DNA of 64,000 nucleotides from Haloplanus sp. HW8-1. Its GTDB lineage: Archaea > Halobacteriota > Halobacteria > Halobacteriales > Haloferacaceae. The stretch covers positions 2,852,001 through 2,916,000 of the forward strand of contig NZ_CP098518.1 of assembly GCF_023703795.1 (NCBI RefSeq), read 5' to 3'. The position numbers were made by a program, and so were the translations under genes. Of the stretch, positions 13,583-22,386 are shown one piece after another (positions within the stretch are counted from its first letter, which is position 1; each line of letters begins with the position of its first letter). The notes beneath the pieces were generated by a model, which made no database searches, had not been told where the DNA came from, and was given only the letters and a program-made list of their open reading frames with translations.

Positions 13583-14374
13583 TCAGGGCTTGGCCGCCCG
13601 GAGGACGTACCGCTCCCCCGGGAGGTCGGCGATCCGCGAGGTCTCGAACCCCAGGTCCGAAAGCGTCGACGCGAGGATCGGTGCGGAACCGCCGAACGCC
13701 CGGAGCCGCGCCGGATGCACCTCGCAGTAGACGAGCCGACAGGCGGGATCGCGGAGCGACTCTCGGAGTCCCTCGACGACCGAGAGTTCGTACCCCTCGA
13801 CGTCGACCTTCACGACCGTCGGGGACGGCAGGTCCGACCGGTCGAGGTAGTCGTCGCCACGGACCCGACGCACGTCGACGTCGCCGCCGTCGGTCGTGAC
13901 GGCGGAACTGCCGTGTGCGTCCGGGACCGTCATCGACACCGTTCCGGGGTCGGCGCCGAACGCGACGGTCGCGACCGTCGCGTCGACGTCGTTCAGCGCG
14001 AGGTTGCGTCGGAGTTTGTCCGCCGTCGACGGGACCGCCTCGACGGCGATCACGTGGCCGGTCTCCAGTGTCTCGCCGACGAACACGGCGTACGCGCCCA
14101 GGTTGCTCCCCACGTCGAGGAAGACGTCGTCCGGGCGGATCTCGTCGCGGAGCCGACCGATCGTTCCCGCCTCCGCCGCGATCTGGTTGAGTTCGACGTG
14201 GTCGCCGAACTCCTCGCGCAGGAAGCGGGGCCGTGCGCCGTCGACCGAGACCGTCCGTCGTTCGTCGGCGAGGCGCATGAACGCACGGCGGGCGACGTCG
14301 GTCAATCCCAGTCGACGGAGCGTGCGCCGGGCGTACGGGCGGATCGTCGCCCCCAGCCCGCCGTCCCGGATCAT
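13583..14374 (-). CDS. FkbM-family methyltransferase
   Basis: 263 residues. The S-adenosylmethionine fold begins near 95 with DDVFLDVGSNLGAYAVFVGETL, followed by VIAVEAVPSTADKLRRNLALN, the acidic motif-II residue and the N-x-A-L-N pattern of the FkbM group. VVKVDVEGYELSVVEGL marks the later strand. Family members O-methylate sugars or polyketides. The start ATG overlaps the stop of the phosphodiesterase gene (ATGA), so the two are one operon. Likely methylates a surface sugar (inference from the neighbourhood). Confidence 0.85.
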   Translation of the reverse strand: MIRDGGLGATIRPYARRTLRRLGLTDVARRAFMRLADERRTVSVDGARPRFLREEFGDHVELNQIAAEAGTIGRLRDEIRPDDVFLDVGSNLGAYAVFVGETLETGHVIAVEAVPSTADKLRRNLALNDVDATVATVAFGADPGTVSMTVPDAHGSSAVTTDGGDVDVRRVRGDDYLDRSDLPSPTVVKVDVEGYELSVVEGLRESLRDPACRLVYCEVHPARLRAFGGSAPILASTLSDLGFETSRIADLPGERYVLRAAKP

Positions 14375-15915
14375 TCGAGATACCCCAGGTTCCGAAGTTG
14401 TTCGCGGGCGGCCGCCGCACGGTCCGTGCCGGTGTCGCGCGTCCGCGGGTCGGGGACGGCCCCCGGATCGAGGACGGTCGGGGCGGCGTCCGTCCGGAGC
14501 ATCCCCGTCCGCACCTCGCCGTCGAGGTCGGGGGGGAGCGACTCGCCGAGTGCGTGGAGGATCGTCGGCAGTACGTCGACGATGGACATGCCGTCGACCG
14601 TCCCGGCGGCAAACAGCGGACCGTCGGCGGCGACGAGCCCGTCGTACCGGTGGTCGTAGTGGTCGTGCCCCGGCATGTCGATGACCGGATCGCCCGTGGG
14701 TGAGAAGGCACGGAGCGGGAGATAGCCCGGGGCCGGTCGGGCGACGAGATCCGGGAGCATGGCGTCCGGATCCGGGTCGGCATACACCTCGTCGAGTTCG
14801 TGGACGGACTGGAAGACGGGGGTGCCGTCGTCGTCGGTGAGCCCGGCGAGTCGGTCGCGTAACTCCGCACGGAGCGCGTCGGCGTCTTCGACGGTCGGCG
14901 AGTCGAACCGGTCGGCGTTCACGTACAGACAGCCGTATCGGAGCTGCCACGCCCGCGAGGCGGCGAAGTCGACGTCGGGATTGAAATCGACCACGTCGCC
15001 GAGTCGCTCGCCACCCGTGGCGCTGGTCACGCGGAGGTACGCGGTCCGCAGGAGGTCGAACAGGGTATCGAAGCGCCGGGCCACCTGCGTTGCGGTCCCC
15101 GTGGCGAGGCGCTGCAGCGACGAGCGTTCGTCGGCCGTGGCGAGATACCCCTCCCGTTCCAGCCAGGTCTGGAGGTGGATCGCCTTCGGCTTGGGTTCGA
15201 ACCCGTGATCGCTCAACAGGAGGACGTTCTCGGCCCGGTCGGCGAGGGCCGCGGCGAACTCGTCGCACGCCTCTAGGACGGTCCGATACCATCGGGAACC
15301 GGTCGCCCCGTCGGGCGCGAACTGGAGGTGGTGGCCGACCCAGTCCGGCGTCGAGAACAGGACGAACCCGACCCGGGGATCGAACCGACCGAACGCCTCG
15401 GCCGCGAAGTCGTGACGAGCCCGCGTCGTCTCGACGAGGTGTTCGAAGTACCGCTCCGGGGTCGCCTGGAGGTCCGTGTCGGCGTGAACGACGTACTCCT
15501 CGAACCCGTCGACCGACCGCAGTTCGGCCGGGACGGCATCCGCCTTGTCCGACGCGAGAAAGGACGACACGAGGCGAGTCCCGGCGGCGGCGGGCGTACG
15601 GCCGATCGACCCCGGGAGGTTGACGAAGAGCGCGTCGTCGATCAGGTCGTACGCCGCCGCGTCGGTCGTGTTGGGCCGCGAGGGCACGATATCGTAGTCA
15701 GTTCCCTGCTGGAGCATCGTGGCGACGCCGTGACTGCCCGGATCCTTCCCGGTCGCGAACGACGTCCACGCGGGGAGTGTCGTCGGCGCGTCCACGCTCC
15801 GCAGGTCGCCGGCGACGCCGTCGCGCTCGACGGCGTCGAGGAACGTCGTCTCCACGTCGAACTCACGGAGCATGTTGGGCGACACCCCATCGAGTCCGAC
15901 GACGAGCAGTTCCAT
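14371..15915 (-). CDS. Alkaline phosphatase-superfamily phosphodiesterase/pyrophosphatase
   Basis: 514 residues from the ATG at 15915; an ATG six codons upstream (15933) is possible, but the family starts directly with MELLVVGLDGVSPNML. The metal site D of GLDG, the nucleophile Thr region DAPTTLPAWTSFATG near 41-55, FSTPDWVGHHLQF and LLLSDHGFEPKPKAIH are all in order, and PGHDHYDHRYDGL supplies a further metal site. This fold (type I phosphodiesterase / nucleotide pyrophosphatase) hydrolyses phosphate esters. It ends in LRNLGYLE, as does the sulfatase-like enzyme at 20836. Upstream, at 15953-15960, is TACTGTCG. Confidence 0.8.
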   Translation of the reverse strand: MELLVVGLDGVSPNMLREFDVETTFLDAVERDGVAGDLRSVDAPTTLPAWTSFATGKDPGSHGVATMLQQGTDYDIVPSRPNTTDAAAYDLIDDALFVNLPGSIGRTPAAAGTRLVSSFLASDKADAVPAELRSVDGFEEYVVHADTDLQATPERYFEHLVETTRARHDFAAEAFGRFDPRVGFVLFSTPDWVGHHLQFAPDGATGSRWYRTVLEACDEFAAALADRAENVLLLSDHGFEPKPKAIHLQTWLEREGYLATADERSSLQRLATGTATQVARRFDTLFDLLRTAYLRVTSATGGERLGDVVDFNPDVDFAASRAWQLRYGCLYVNADRFDSPTVEDADALRAELRDRLAGLTDDDGTPVFQSVHELDEVYADPDPDAMLPDLVARPAPGYLPLRAFSPTGDPVIDMPGHDHYDHRYDGLVAADGPLFAAGTVDGMSIVDVLPTILHALGESLPPDLDGEVRTGMLRTDAAPTVLDPGAVPDPRTRDTGTDRAAAAREQLRNLGYLE

Positions 15916-15952
15916 GGTCGTGTGCCCATACATGTCGGCGCATCACAAATGT

Positions 15953-16148: not shown

Positions 16149-16835
16149 ATGGATCGCCGAGGGGTGCTCGCCGCGTTCACGTCGTTGTTAGCCGGATGTA
16201 CGGGCGTCTCGGCCAGAGGCGTCTGGGAAGACGAGGCGCCGGGTTCGGACGGGGCGGAGACGCCGACCGCCACCCGGACGCCCGCCCCGACCGCCACGCC
16301 AACGTCGACGCCGACCGCGACGGAGGCGCCGTCACCGACGCCGACGGAGACGCCGACGCCGACCGCCACGCGAACGCCGACGCCGACCGCCACGCCGGAA
16401 CCGGAGGACATCCTCATCGGGATGGGCGAGTGGGCTGAGATGGAGACCGACGGGACGAGCCTCGAAATCCGGGTCACGCATTACGACACCGCCGAAAAGA
16501 TCCAGCGAGGTCCCGGAGAGGTCCCCATCTCGCCGGACGCGAACGACGAGACGTTCCTGGTGACACACGTCGAACTCCGGAACCTCTTCACGGTCACGAC
16601 GGTCGGGTGGTCGCAGTGGTCGATGACCGACTTCCAGGGGAACGAACACACGCCGTATCAGAAGGCGATGTACCAGGGGCAAAATACGCTGGACGAGGGA
16701 GTCGACATCGGTATATCACCGGAGTTCATCTCGACGCGGGTCGTCTTCTCCCTGAAGTACCCGCACGATCCGTCGTGGACGGTCGAACCGTACGACGACA
16801 ACGACGGGCCGACAGTCCGGATCCTCAGCGAGTGA
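16149..16835 (+). CDS. Tat lipoprotein with Thr/Pro stalk and DUF4352-like domain
   Basis: 228 residues. MDRRGVLAAFTSLLAGC is a twin-arginine signal ending in a lipobox, so Cys 17 would be lipidated and the protein anchored outside. Residues about 37-85 are almost all Thr, Pro and Ala repeats, a flexible and probably O-glycosylated stalk. The rest, from DILIGMGEWAEMETDGTSLE, resembles the beta-sandwich of DUF4352-type lipoproteins, with FLVTHVELRNL and a late TRVVFSLKY strand. A GTG two codons earlier is an alternative start. Function unknown. It is convergent with the tyrosine-tailed small gene 12 nt away. Confidence 0.7.
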   Translation: MDRRGVLAAFTSLLAGCTGVSARGVWEDEAPGSDGAETPTATRTPAPTATPTSTPTATEAPSPTPTETPTPTATRTPTPTATPEPEDILIGMGEWAEMETDGTSLEIRVTHYDTAEKIQRGPGEVPISPDANDETFLVTHVELRNLFTVTTVGWSQWSMTDFQGNEHTPYQKAMYQGQNTLDEGVDIGISPEFISTRVVFSLKYPHDPSWTVEPYDDNDGPTVRILSE

Positions 16836-16847
16836 CGGGCCGCCACG

Positions 16848-17024
16848 TCACTCCCCGTAGCCACCCGTGCCGTAGCCCTCGGCGCCGTACGTCTCCGGCC
16901 CCGCCGGCCGGGAGAGTCCCGCCATGGCGTTCGGGAGCGAATCGTCGGGAACCACCGTCGACACCACGAGGTATCCACCGAGGGTGGCGGCCGCCAGTAT
17001 CGTGAGATAGTCACGTCGGTCCAT
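16848..17024 (-). CDS. 58-residue membrane-anchored protein with Tyr-Gly tail
   Basis: Starts MDRRDYLTILAAATLGGYLV: a twin-arginine-like start and one hydrophobic helix (about 7-25). A short polar region follows. The last 13 residues contain Y46-G, Y51-G and Y56-G in a Gly/Glu context, ending GGYGE. The same kind of tail closes the P-loop protein encoded 196 nt upstream on the same strand. The in-frame ATG 24 codons earlier would add an Arg/Pro-rich stretch and is less likely. No known family. The shared tail suggests the two proteins work together or are targets of one modifying enzyme. Confidence 0.55.
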   Translation of the reverse strand: MDRRDYLTILAAATLGGYLVVSTVVPDDSLPNAMAGLSRPAGPETYGAEGYGTGGYGE

Positions 17025-17220
17025 TGGTTGGCTGTCGACCACGCCGCTCGGGGCCCGAGTTCGGGACCGTGGGGGTACACGAGCGGCGGGACACATGAGT
17101 TTTCTGAAGGATTACCGACGTTTTCGGCGGTCGCGACGGGACGGGGAAACCGGGAGACCGGTCGCTACCACCGGCGCCGGCCGGTGAACGGGGGGATGGG
17201 TCCGCGCCCGTTCGGCAGTC

Positions 17221-18453
17221 CTACACGTTCCCACCGTAGCCGCCCTCGCCGTAGCCGACCTCGCCGAAGTCGTCGTCGGACGTCGCAGTCGGCGTCGGCG
17301 TGGCAGTGGCCGTCGACGAATCACCGGCCCCGCCGCCACCACCGCCCCCGCCACCACCCGTCATTCCGGCGGACTGCTCGGAGGTAGCCGTCGCCGTCGA
17401 GTCGGGCGTGGGCGTCGGCGTGGCGGTGGGTTCGGACGTGGCGGTCGGTGTGGTCGTGGTGGCGTCGGCCGTCGTCGCCTCCGGCGTCGCGGTGGGGGTC
17501 CCGTCGTCCGTCTGCGTGGCCGTGACGACGGCCGTAGCAGTGGCTGTGGTCGCGGTGGTCCCGGGAGCGTCGGTCGTCGCGTCGGCGACGGGCGTACCGC
17601 CGTATCCGAACCCGTCGATGTCGGCGACGGCATCGGTCGGATCGTCGTCACCGGGTCCGAGGACTCCGGTCGAGACCGCACCGACGACGCCCATGACGAG
17701 CGTCAACAGGACGCGACGACTGGTCACGAGGCGGGCCGTCTCGTCGGCCGCGAACGTCGACGCGTCCGAACGGTCGCTCGAACCCGATGGTGTCGCGTCG
17801 TCGCCCGGACGGGACCGCTCGGCAACGACGGCGGCGAGTCGGCGATAGGCGACGGCGGCCGGGTGATCCGGAGCGTCACGAACGAGAGACGGTGTGTTCG
17901 CGTCGCCGACCCCCGGAACCCGTGCGATGACGGGACGGTCCGGGTCCGCGGGGTCGACGGACGCGTCGGCGCGTGTCAGAACGGAACCGAGGTGTTCGGG
18001 GTCCCGGAGGTCCGGACGGTCGCGGACGGCAGACGGGGTTCGACGACTGTGGACGGTCGAGACGGTGAGCACGCCGTCGGCCACGTCGAGGGCGGCGTCC
18101 GTGTGCGGGGCGGTCGGCGGTCCGGTGTCGATCAGGACGAGGTCGAAGGCGTCGAACGCCGCCGCACGCAGTTCCTTGGGAGCGGCGGGCGTTCCCCGCC
18201 GTCCCGGAACGACGACTTCCGTGGATCCCGCCTCCGGGGCCGAGCGGCGCGGCGCGTCGCCGGCGAGTACGTCCCGAACCGTCGGCCCGGTATCGCAGTC
18301 GTCGAACTGCTCGGCGAGTCCGGGATCCGTCGGGTCGAAGTCGACGAGCAACACGTCGTGTCCGGCGTCGACGAGGAGCGTGCCGAGCGCCGCCACGGTG
18401 ACGGTCTTGTCGACCCCATCGGTCGGACCAACGACAGTGCAAACGTACACCAT
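17221..18453 (-). CDS. MinD/BY-kinase-like P-loop protein with membrane segment and Tyr-Gly tail
   Basis: 410 residues. The N-terminal 220 follow the deviant Walker ATPase plan: VVGPTDGVDKTVTVAALG at 7-24, a Walker A whose second-to-last Gly is Asp15 although Lys16 and Thr17 remain; VLLVDFDPTDPGLAEQF at 34-50 (Walker A'); and FDLVLIDTGPPTAPHTDA at 103-120 (Walker B). A hydrophobic segment lies near 245-263, then a long Thr/Ala/Pro linker, a Gly run, and the tail GEVGYGEGGYGGNV with Y401 and Y406. Bacterial BY-kinases (CpsD, Wzc) pair such a domain with C-terminal tyrosine clusters to control capsule export. If the membrane segment is real, this tail would lie outside the cell, unlike theirs. 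ParA/MinD-like positioning is the alternative. Confidence 0.7.
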   Translation of the reverse strand: MVYVCTVVGPTDGVDKTVTVAALGTLLVDAGHDVLLVDFDPTDPGLAEQFDDCDTGPTVRDVLAGDAPRRSAPEAGSTEVVVPGRRGTPAAPKELRAAAFDAFDLVLIDTGPPTAPHTDAALDVADGVLTVSTVHSRRTPSAVRDRPDLRDPEHLGSVLTRADASVDPADPDRPVIARVPGVGDANTPSLVRDAPDHPAAVAYRRLAAVVAERSRPGDDATPSGSSDRSDASTFAADETARLVTSRRVLLTLVMGVVGAVSTGVLGPGDDDPTDAVADIDGFGYGGTPVADATTDAPGTTATTATATAVVTATQTDDGTPTATPEATTADATTTTPTATSEPTATPTPTPDSTATATSEQSAGMTGGGGGGGGGGAGDSSTATATPTPTATSDDDFGEVGYGEGGYGGNV

Positions 18454-20835: not shown

Positions 20836-22386
20836 TCACTCCAGATAGCCCAGGTCGCGCAGGCGCTCCTGGGCCTCGTCGTCCATGTCCGCGACGGCGT
20901 CGTCGGTCACGTCGGCGTCGGCGGCGCCGGTCCACGCGCCGCCGACGTCGGATTCGAAGGCGGCGAGGACGCGTTCGACCTCGTGAACGGGCGACTCGGC
21001 GTCCGCGTCGCCGGCCACGTTCGTCGTCTCGTCGGGGTCGACGTCGAGGCGGTAGGCCTCGTCGGCGATCCGATCGATCCGGACGTACTTCGCGTCGGGG
21101 CGCCGGGCGGCGCGCATCCGCGCGTAGAACCGGGACTCCTCGGGGAGGTCGATGCCCGCGGCCGCCGCCTTCTCCTCCAGTTGCTTGAGTTCGACCACCG
21201 GCCGGGAGTACTCGACGAAGCCGACGGTCCCGTCGGGGGCGGCCGCCTGTCCGGGGTCGGGGTCGGCCGCGGCGTCGAAGGCGCGGTACTCCCCGGACAA
21301 CAGGGAGCGGGTGGGGTCGCGGGCGACGGCCGTCTCGCCGGGGGCGGAGTCGCCGCCGGGGACGTCGAGGGCGTCGAGGACGGTGTGGTAGAGATCCAGG
21401 AGTTCGACGGTGTCGGTCCGGCGGTCGGCGTCGAGGGCGGGGTGTTTGACCATGAGCGGGACGTTCACCAGCGGGTCGTAGAGACCGAACTCGTGGCCGT
21501 AGAGGTCGTGTTCCCCGTGGAGTTCGCCGTGGTCCGCACAGACGACGACGGTCGTGTCCGCCCACTCACCACGCTCCTTGAGCCAGTCGAACAGCCGAGT
21601 GAGTTGGGCGTCGATGTGGGCGATTTCGGCGTCGTAGAGGTTTCGAATATCCCGCCACTCGTCGTCGTCGATGTCGCGGGCGCCCGAATTGTACTCCTTG
21701 GAGTTCTGGCAGACGACGGTGGAGTCGACGCCGGGGGCGAACTCGTCGACGAACGCGTCGGGGGGGTGGTAGGGGAGGTGAGCGTCCATCAGGTTGATGA
21801 AGGCGAACCAGTCCTCCGAGTCGTCGACGAACTCCATGGTGCGGTCGATAACGGCGGGGGTCTTGGAGTCGGCGCCCTCGCCGCCGGCCAGATACTCGTG
21901 GGCGACGTTCCCCAGCGAGACGAGTTTGTCCGCAAGGGTTCGAAGCCGGTCGTTGTCGTTCATCGTCTTCCACGCACGGGCGAGCGGACCGGAGAGCAGG
22001 TCGCGGGGCATCACCTCGAAGAAGTTGTCCTGGGCGTCGAAGCCGTCGGTGAGGTGGGTGTAGGGCGTGATCCAGGCGTTCGAGGAGTAACAGGCGGTGT
22101 CGTAGCCGGCGGCGGAGACCGTCTCGGCGAGCGTGGTGACGCCGTCGAGATAGGGGTTCTCCTGGTCGGCGCCGTGTTGGCTGGGGTAGAGACCGGTAAA
22201 GAGGGAGGCGTGAACCGGGAGCGTCCAGGGGGCGGGGGCGACGGCCTCCTCGAACACCGTCGCCTCGGCGGCGAAGTCATCGAGGCCGGGCGTGGTCGGT
22301 CGGTCGTAGCCGTAGGGCGTCAGGTGATCCGCCCGAACCGTATCCATGACGACGAAGAGGACGTTCCCGGGGGCGTCGCTCGACAT
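20836..22386 (-). CDS. Sulfatase-fold hydrolase/transferase lacking the formylglycine cysteine
   Basis: 516 residues. NVLFVVMDTVRADHLTPYGY gives the first metal Asp (D15). The catalytic site reads T55-L-P-V-H59, where sulfatases have Cys/Ser-x-Pro-x-Arg. Later come FAFINLMDAHLPYHPPD, VVVCADHGELHGEHDLYGHEFGLYDPLVNVPLMVKHP, all typical of this group. With Thr in place of Cys it is more likely a phosphoester enzyme, such as a phosphoglycerol-transferase-like protein, than an arylsulfatase. It has no signal peptide. It ends LRDLGYLE like the phosphodiesterase at 14371. TATA-like GGGCTTTATT lies at about 22411-22420. Substrate unknown. Confidence 0.78.
   Translation of the reverse strand: MSSDAPGNVLFVVMDTVRADHLTPYGYDRPTTPGLDDFAAEATVFEEAVAPAPWTLPVHASLFTGLYPSQHGADQENPYLDGVTTLAETVSAAGYDTACYSSNAWITPYTHLTDGFDAQDNFFEVMPRDLLSGPLARAWKTMNDNDRLRTLADKLVSLGNVAHEYLAGGEGADSKTPAVIDRTMEFVDDSEDWFAFINLMDAHLPYHPPDAFVDEFAPGVDSTVVCQNSKEYNSGARDIDDDEWRDIRNLYDAEIAHIDAQLTRLFDWLKERGEWADTTVVVCADHGELHGEHDLYGHEFGLYDPLVNVPLMVKHPALDADRRTDTVELLDLYHTVLDALDVPGGDSAPGETAVARDPTRSLLSGEYRAFDAAADPDPGQAAAPDGTVGFVEYSRPVVELKQLEEKAAAAGIDLPEESRFYARMRAARRPDAKYVRIDRIADEAYRLDVDPDETTNVAGDADAESPVHEVERVLAAFESDVGGAWTGAADADVTDDAVADMDDEAQERLRDLGYLE

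Follow-up and report, generated by a model that had tools for sequence, protein, structure and literature searches.

A conserved tyrosine-glycine tag of haloarchaeal proteins and its linkage to NENF-domain proteins in exopolysaccharide loci

Very little is known about what keeps proteins and polysaccharide together on archaeal cell surfaces. In the haloarchaeal surface tags of the PGF-CTERM/ArtA type, a short conserved C-terminal element follows a Thr-rich stalk on exported proteins. The tyrosine-glycine (YG) tag described here is likewise a short conserved C-terminal element behind a Thr-rich stalk on exported proteins, but it has neither a C-terminal hydrophobic helix nor a basic end, it also occurs at mature N-termini, and it is mostly found on proteins with a Tat signal and frequently a lipobox.

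The larger of two proteins with this tag encoded in the window (the whole stretch of 64,000 nucleotides of Haloplanus sp. HW8-1 DNA that was analyzed) resembles two described families. Bacterial BY-kinases (CpsD, Wzc, EpsG) are similar in being P-loop proteins near glycan genes with a Tyr-rich C-terminal tail; in the window protein, however, the tail is predicted to lie on the opposite side of the membrane, the catalytic motifs are not conserved and the domain is nearer to MinD. Archaeal MinD ATPases include MinD1-MinD4 of H. volcanii (PMC11588486). The N-terminal domain of the window protein shares fold and family with the archaeal MinD/ParA-Soj proteins, whereas its own group is long-branched, has an eroded Walker A motif and is fused to an RR membrane segment, a stalk and a tag predicted to be outside.

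The tag is associated with proteins that begin with a conserved domain, here called NENF. Phage tail fibres and spikes (Mtd_N, PF18454; phage hyaluronidase 2c3f) are similar to NENF proteins by weak Mtd_N and weak fold matches, by C-terminal parts of tail-spike, depolymerase and beta-helix type, and by the first ~30 residues, which recur in viral contigs. Unlike phage fibres, NENF genes are cellular and lie beside tagged lipoproteins in glycan loci, and their relatives in named genomes are haloarchaeal but for one. A constant tag, a constant adaptor and variable cargo recall dockerin-cohesin, and a signal-less partner beside a Tat-signalled protein recalls Tat hitchhiker pairs; tag and NENF have no sequence relation to either system, and their binding is a proposed one. 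Tat hitchhiking is established for redox enzymes (PMC10924467).

Two window genes with YG tails

The first-pass annotation of this DNA had reported two neighbouring genes with YG tails, and both were found at the positions it gave, on the minus strand. Their features and the flanking genes are listed below.

17221..18453, minus strand: P-loop YG protein gene, 410 aa, ATG start; orthologues in genomes G010, G067 and G387
17779..18453, minus strand: MinD/ParA-like domain of the P-loop protein, residues 1-225 (Pfam, NCBIfam, AlphaFold2 fold)
18403..18429, minus strand: degenerate Walker A, GPTDGVDKT (alignment with three orthologues and 14 MinD-like proteins)
17656..17718, minus strand: internal twin-arginine-like membrane segment SRRVLLTLVMGVVGAVSTGVLG of the P-loop protein (hydropathy scan and alignment)
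17594..17613, minus strand: GFGYGGT(P) element (GFGYGGTPV) of the P-loop protein, predicted just outside the membrane
17221..17268, minus strand: C-terminal YG tag FGEVGYGEGGYGGNV and stop of the P-loop gene (pattern search, codon test)
16848..17024, minus strand: 58-aa YG mini-protein gene (RR and one membrane segment, then a short spacer and the YG tag)
16950..17006, minus strand: membrane segment LTILAAATLGGYLVVSTVV of the mini-protein, directly after MDRRDY
16848..16889, minus strand: YG tag YGAEGYGTGGYGE and stop of the mini-protein gene (pattern search, codon test)
14371..15933, minus strand: type I phosphodiesterase/nucleotide pyrophosphatase family protein (Pfam PF01663)
20836..22386, minus strand: sulfatase-family protein (Pfam PF00884)

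From the N- to the C-terminus the P-loop protein consists of a MinD/ParA-like domain, predicted to be cytosolic, the internal RR membrane segment, the FGYGGTP element, a Thr/Pro/Gly-rich stalk and the YG tag. A GTG lying 15 bases before the ATG is an unlikely alternative, since the start point is shared with two of the three orthologues. For the 58-aa gene, in-frame upstream GTG/ATG starts would give proteins of 64 or 82 aa; no lipobox was found in the 58-aa product. The P-loop protein ends in ...DDFGEVGYGEGGYGGNV (...DDDFGEVGYGEGGYGGNV) and the mini-protein in ...TYGAEGYGTGGYGE (...ETYGAEGYGTGGYGE). Both tails contain three aromatic-Gly units at a spacing of 5, with the aromatic residues F, Y, Y in the P-loop protein and Y, Y, Y in the mini-protein. 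Both tails are real; the first-pass annotation had listed two Y-G units for the P-loop protein and three for its small neighbour. The GFGYGGTPV element behind the membrane segment is an additional YG element that had not been noted before.

Both flanking genes listed above encode proteins with the shared ending LR(D/N)LGYLE, and homologues at other glycan loci also end in LGYL. A homologue of the sulfatase-family protein was found by neighbour clustering near the P-loop YG gene in G010 too. The gene at 16149-16835, oriented away from the YG genes, is predicted to encode a lipoprotein with a TPTPT stalk; its C-terminal domain has no match in Pfam, and the protein lacks the YG tag.

A hydropathy scan of the P-loop protein revealed one clear membrane segment, directly behind a twin arginine (TSRR-VLLTLVMGVVGAVSTGVLG). 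Three basic residues precede it and none follows; in the orthologues basic residues also stand before the segment and none just after it, except one in G387. The FGYGGTP element, stalk and tag follow the segment in the order in which they follow the signal of tailed lipoproteins. From the charges and this lipoprotein-like layout the tail is predicted to lie outside the membrane, as the first-pass annotation had it, and signals and charge together indicate that the tag is very probably outside the cell. A twin arginine with a hydrophobic segment is present in both window genes and in 37 of 45 tailed proteins, a count that stopped short of the RR of the P-loop class and may include proteins with truncated predicted starts. 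The tails have no C-terminal helix of PGF-CTERM type and end within about 8 residues of the last YG.

It had been suggested by analogy with CpsD that the P-loop protein could be a bacterial-type tyrosine kinase, the P-loop domain phosphorylating the tail tyrosines and regulating glycan synthesis. Such a role would fit a P-loop and a Tyr tail in one protein of a glycan region, and the EpsG and Wzc models did give weak, sub-threshold matches. These models, however, scored far below cut-off and lower than minD_arch (TIGR01969), the best NCBIfam model (31 bits against a cut-off of 202); Pfam CbiA and AAA_31 were just over their cut-offs. An AlphaFold2 model of the domain (pLDDT 78, pTM 0.80; 18-row alignment) has a P-loop fold of the MinD/ParA group. 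Its best PDB folds were A. fulgidus MinD and Soj (Foldseek E 3e-10 and TM 0.72 to A. fulgidus MinD), and no BY-kinase appeared among its top 50 PDB fold matches.

The unusual Walker A with Asp in place of Gly was confirmed as GPTDGVDKT. The three orthologues have KRGVGKT, TSGVGAT and TQGEGKA at this position, so that the BY-kinase Walker A, (K)GGxGKT, is not conserved across the four. Both lysines of the deviant Walker A (KGGxGKT) are kept only by the G010 orthologue; the motif is eroded in three of the four, and one lacks both lysines. In addition, the tagged P-loop domains of the four genomes group together on a long branch, separate from ordinary haloarchaeal MinD-like proteins (support 100/100). 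From the family models, the modelled fold, the separate long branch and the altered Walker A we conclude that the domain is an eroding MinD relative and no tyrosine kinase. A BY-kinase has its Tyr cluster on the domain's side of the membrane, whereas here, as predicted from the segment and its charges, the membrane separates the two. Furthermore, the same tail occurs on dozens of Tat-exported proteins without an ATPase, and most tails are found in such company. BY-kinase identity was rejected on motif, family, fold and topology; the CpsD analogy is not supported, and phosphorylation of the tail by the P-loop domain is very improbable.

Among the sampled relatives of the same genus, the small protein and the P-loop protein occur together only in G010. 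There the small protein (L051:17999-18178) is 52% identical to that of the window (E 1.4e-4), both tails (GYGTGGYGE and DYGEFGYGEGGYGGTV) and the FGYGGTP element are kept, and the Thr/Pro stalk of the P-loop protein is far longer. G067 and G387 have further P-loop orthologues with the FGYGGTP element and the tail. Comparison of window and G010 by the Nei-Gojobori method gave pN/pS values of 0.06/0.47 for the last 14 codons of the 58-aa gene and 0.10/0.50 for the last 15 codons of the P-loop gene, compared with 0.35/0.60 for the P-loop domain. The tail codons are the most conserved part of these genes, under purifying selection much stronger than that on the rest. Because its tag is retained in the orthologue despite synonymous changes, the 58-aa protein is no chance ORF. 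Absence of the tails from orthologues and of any glycan link had been named as evidence that would count against the first-pass annotation; both points were looked at, the tails were found to be kept and the genes to lie in glycan regions, and this check was passed.

The tag in Halobacteria and its NENF neighbours

Among 391 Halobacteria genomes, which are related by shared ancestry, the pattern GYGxGGYGG had matches in 24 and the pattern [FY]GxxG[FY]GxxG[FY]G in 85; exact patterns undercount divergent tags, and the genes were called with a home-made hexamer caller. By our own tally the forward pattern gave ~121 matches in the 391 genomes and its reverse ~37. The window genome (3.84 Mb) has only three occurrences of the three-unit motif, all within 52 kb (simulated chance 0.0006); the third belongs to a CBM6/35 protein (G000:C1:2816797-2817909) about 52 kb from the window pair. 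The YG tails, taken at first for a peculiarity of two genes, belong to a module found throughout the class, and the partner is a different one, the NENF proteins. The tag itself had no Pfam, NCBIfam or PDB match, and no paper on such a tag was found in the open-access literature.

Reading of about 55 loci defined the general motif as about three [FY]GxxG units, located at the extreme C-terminus or directly after the signal, and distinguished three classes. The first comprises C-terminal tags on Tat proteins, mostly lipoproteins, with the layout RR signal, lipobox Cys, [FY]GYGGxP, variable domain or none, T/P-rich stalk, and DD[FY]GEQGYGEYGYGG followed by a few residues. The middle domains by Pfam are LamG, CBM6/35, PPC-like or none, and some of these proteins (95-109 aa; L145, L146) are almost nothing but signal, stalk and tags. 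In the second class the tag stands right behind the Tat signal of Fn3-like secreted proteins, with no NENF gene next door. The third consists of the P-loop class of the window and mini-proteins of 48-64 aa with RR, one membrane segment and the tag; analogous mini-genes of 48-62 aa occur in genus g43, identified by its named contigs as Haloarcula, and pair there with a large tagged protein encoded at a distance of about 7 kb. In tailed proteins the tag is preceded by the T/P stalk and lies 0-8 residues from the C-terminus. Most tailed lipoproteins also have an FGYGG-type element after the signal or lipobox, as the P-loop protein has after its membrane segment.

NENF is a conserved N-terminal domain of ~72 residues, usually ahead of a beta-helix, with the consensus MTxNHxYxTPxxGTxDWHxPLNxNFExLDxDVExRD...YxPKxGAKFLATDTGxVYxGDGSxW (alignment A1). 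With at most one exception in 58, NENF proteins have no signal peptide or membrane segment. Their C-terminal parts vary (beta-helix, GH28, phage-depolymerase-like, tail-spike, or nothing). No Pfam or NCBIfam family matched the domain above cut-off, and there was no credible PDB sequence match. Mtd_N (PF18454) matched residues 35-66 weakly (18.3 bits against a cut-off of 26.3), and Foldseek gave weak matches (E 0.2-1.4) to Mtd, phage hyaluronidase tail fibres and the trimerisation domains of collagen XV/XVIII. Judging from these modelled folds, it is a reasonable guess that NENF is a trimeric attachment domain like those of tail fibres. Its first ~30 residues (W[HD]xPLNxNF) are also found in viral contigs (L319-L345), suggesting that the domain originated in tail fibres; L318, which may be a halovirus or provirus, has a match over the full domain at 62% identity. 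Of the 72 NENF loci in named genomes, 71 belong to haloarchaea, among them Haloarcula, Halorubrum, Haloferax, Natronomonas and Halarchaeum. The sole other match is a NENF-like one in a Planctomycetaceae MAG (L316; 48% over 29 residues).

Of 37 tailed stalk genes, 25 are directly followed on the same strand by a NENF gene, usually with an overlap (often 4 bases) or a gap of less than 60 bp. A NENF gene was present within about 10 kb at 34 examined tagged loci and at none of 20 control loci from the same genomes. Pattern and profile searches, on which the co-occurrence counts rest, detected NENF in 104 of the 391 genomes: in 67 of the 70 with a Tyr-containing motif against 37 of the 321 others (odds ratio 171). 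At genus level, by hand count, NENF occurs in 26 of the 28 genera with the tag and in 18 of the other 58; within genus g14, tag and NENF are found in exactly the same five of 46 genomes. Three genomes with the Tyr motif had no detected NENF, and several with NENF only carry slightly different tails (YGSQAYGEYGYGG, YGNQAYGEYGYGG, YGQQKYGELGYGG), mostly adjoining the NENF gene. Viewed from the NENF side, a tagged protein is encoded upstream at 36 of 73 scanned loci, the one strong viral match included, and nearly always ends at the NENF start; about half of the NENF loci in named genomes have no upstream tail by the strict pattern. Named species of Haloarcula and Haloferax carry the pair.

In the window genome, two beta-helix genes that match only the first half of the NENF domain (G000:C1:2839416-2842700) lie about 26 kb from the window pair, in the same island as the third tagged protein; the window YG genes adjoin no NENF gene. 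Overall, we have little doubt that tag and NENF are functionally linked in exopolysaccharide loci. Computation shows the motif and its layout, the conservation of the tag, the export signals, the order of the genes, the co-occurrence with NENF, the glycan setting and the MinD-type fold.

These data also bear on whether the tails are coincidental low-complexity sequence, as Gly-rich tails in GC-rich genomes might be. Phe-only tandem repeats do match the pattern by chance: genomes with Phe-only matches have NENF in one of 15 cases, and these matches look like chance repeats. Such an origin is scarcely credible for the Tyr-containing tails, given residues kept in spite of synonymous divergence, a fixed C-terminal position, constant gene order and co-occurrence across genomes. 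That the tag forms a real conserved class is virtually certain.

Possible roles of the tag

The YG tail is common to exported surface proteins, belongs to sugar-coat clusters and co-occurs with NENF, and for these reasons we read it as an external docking tag for NENF spikes in exopolysaccharide loci and not as a kinase tail (probability about 0.45). Exported Tat proteins, mostly lipoproteins on Thr/Pro stalks, would carry about three [FY]GxxG units at the distal end. As a rule the partner would be the signal-less product of the next gene, with a NENF domain resembling the trimerising attachment end of phage tail fibres and a variable C-terminal part, most often a beta-helix of the polysaccharide-lyase or depolymerase kind. 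The tag may in this way fix NENF spikes, and perhaps further matrix proteins, to the surface of exopolysaccharide-producing cells. We consider docking likeliest; the constant parts of the two proteins would touch while everything else varies. Direct binding of tag and NENF has somewhat less than an even chance. Against it, an AlphaFold2 prediction of tail and NENF as one read-through chain gave a well-predicted NENF and a disordered tail with no sign of docking, although this is a weak test, a single chain with a forced linker having been modelled from a shallow alignment. Docking is also opposed by the distance of the window pair from the nearest NENF genes, the class with the tag behind the signal and no NENF neighbour, the three Tyr-motif genomes with no detected NENF, and the NENF loci with no upstream tail by the strict pattern.

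The neighbourhood of the tagged genes supports the glycan setting proposed earlier. Glycosyltransferases recur (GT4-like at 27 loci, GT2-like at 26), as do epimerases, Gfo/Idh-like enzymes, nucleotidyltransferases, flippase-like and sulfatase-like proteins, all named by sequence appearance. When 20 tagged loci were matched with 20 random loci of the same genomes, the beta-helix family was counted 11:0, GT4 and GT2 7:1 each, Gfo/Idh 6:0 and flippases 4:0; for sulfatase-like proteins (2:3) there was no enrichment. An exopolysaccharide cluster of similar make-up (glycosyltransferases, a polysaccharide biosynthesis protein and an arylsulfatase) is found in Haloarcula hispanica (PMC5467301). These enzymes and the lectin-like middle domains (LamG, CBM6/35) would also suit a tag that binds polysaccharide or the S-layer itself as an aromatic-glycine adhesive for sugar or matrix, with NENF spikes sharing the EPS cassette and binding sugar independently, and this would also account for the motif on Fn3-type proteins without an adjacent NENF. 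However, tag and NENF go together almost one to one from genome to genome, it is NENF in particular that follows as the next gene while the glycosyltransferase neighbours vary, and a peptide of 13 residues is short for a sugar-binding module. We regard a sugar-binding tag as rather unlikely.

The tag tyrosines could instead be substrates of an extracellular covalent modification (dityrosine cross-link, O-glycan acceptor or similar) that anchors the protein to the matrix. In 38 distinct tails Tyr prevails over Phe at position 2 (35:3) and position 3 (34:4), which together with the EPS context agrees with such a role. No position is free of Phe, however, which is frequent at position 1 (11 of 38), and neighbour clustering yielded no modifying enzyme common to the loci; covalent modification is accordingly quite unlikely. 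A sorting enzyme next to all tagged genes was likewise not found by this clustering, which gave only glycan enzymes and NENF.

Docking of NENF spikes agrees with the alternative offered in the first-pass annotation, surface anchoring or sorting, which is the better branch; the tag is on exported stalk proteins and is predicted to be outside. The window variants would be membrane-anchored forms, one a bare 58-aa mini-tag and the other a tag with an eroded MinD-like cytosolic domain on its N-terminal side. That domain, we guess, probably couples surface assembly to the cell inside or positions the assembly in the membrane. NENF proteins might leave the cell carried through Tat by the tagged partner; by analogy with known pairs such hitchhiking is conceivable, if doubtful. 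Also unlikely is a complete tag-and-adaptor system in which the (YGxxG)n tag binds the NENF of domesticated phage-tail-spike-like proteins, carries them folded through Tat and displays interchangeable polysaccharide-acting spikes, the MinD-like variant linking display to the cytoplasm.

With a short, searchable tag and a co-inherited partner domain, many hypothetical secreted proteins of haloarchaeal exopolysaccharide clusters could be named and given roles that can be tested. The linkage would further suggest that cells have reused phage tail-spike parts. Should NENF proteins leave the cell on the back of their tagged partners, Tat hitchhiking would reach beyond redox enzymes and include surface spikes.

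Several other gene groups were seen near tagged genes. In three genomes the YG genes are bordered by a membrane block (L051:14938-L052:5134 in G010, L092:738-9765 in G030, L093:13047-19777 in G067) comprising, with names given by eye, a MoxR-type ATPase, DUF58-, DUF4350- and DUF1616-like proteins and a 91-aa membrane protein. This MoxR/DUF1616-type block was rejected as the tag partner, being present at a minority of loci only. A membrane protein of ~91 aa (neighbour cluster 21) lies beside tagged genes in different genera (L052, L092, L093, L148, L167). Finally, what appears by eye to be an archaeal lasso-peptide-type set adjoins the P-loop YG gene in G387 (L094:11953-19901) and G010 (L052:5286-6425), with asparagine-synthase-like, PqqD-like, HprK-like, nucleotidyltransferase-like and ABC transporter genes and short precursor-like ORFs (MSKNSSSRYEAPEVNKHGAVESITQ...; MKQYESPEVVELGDIDEVT...).
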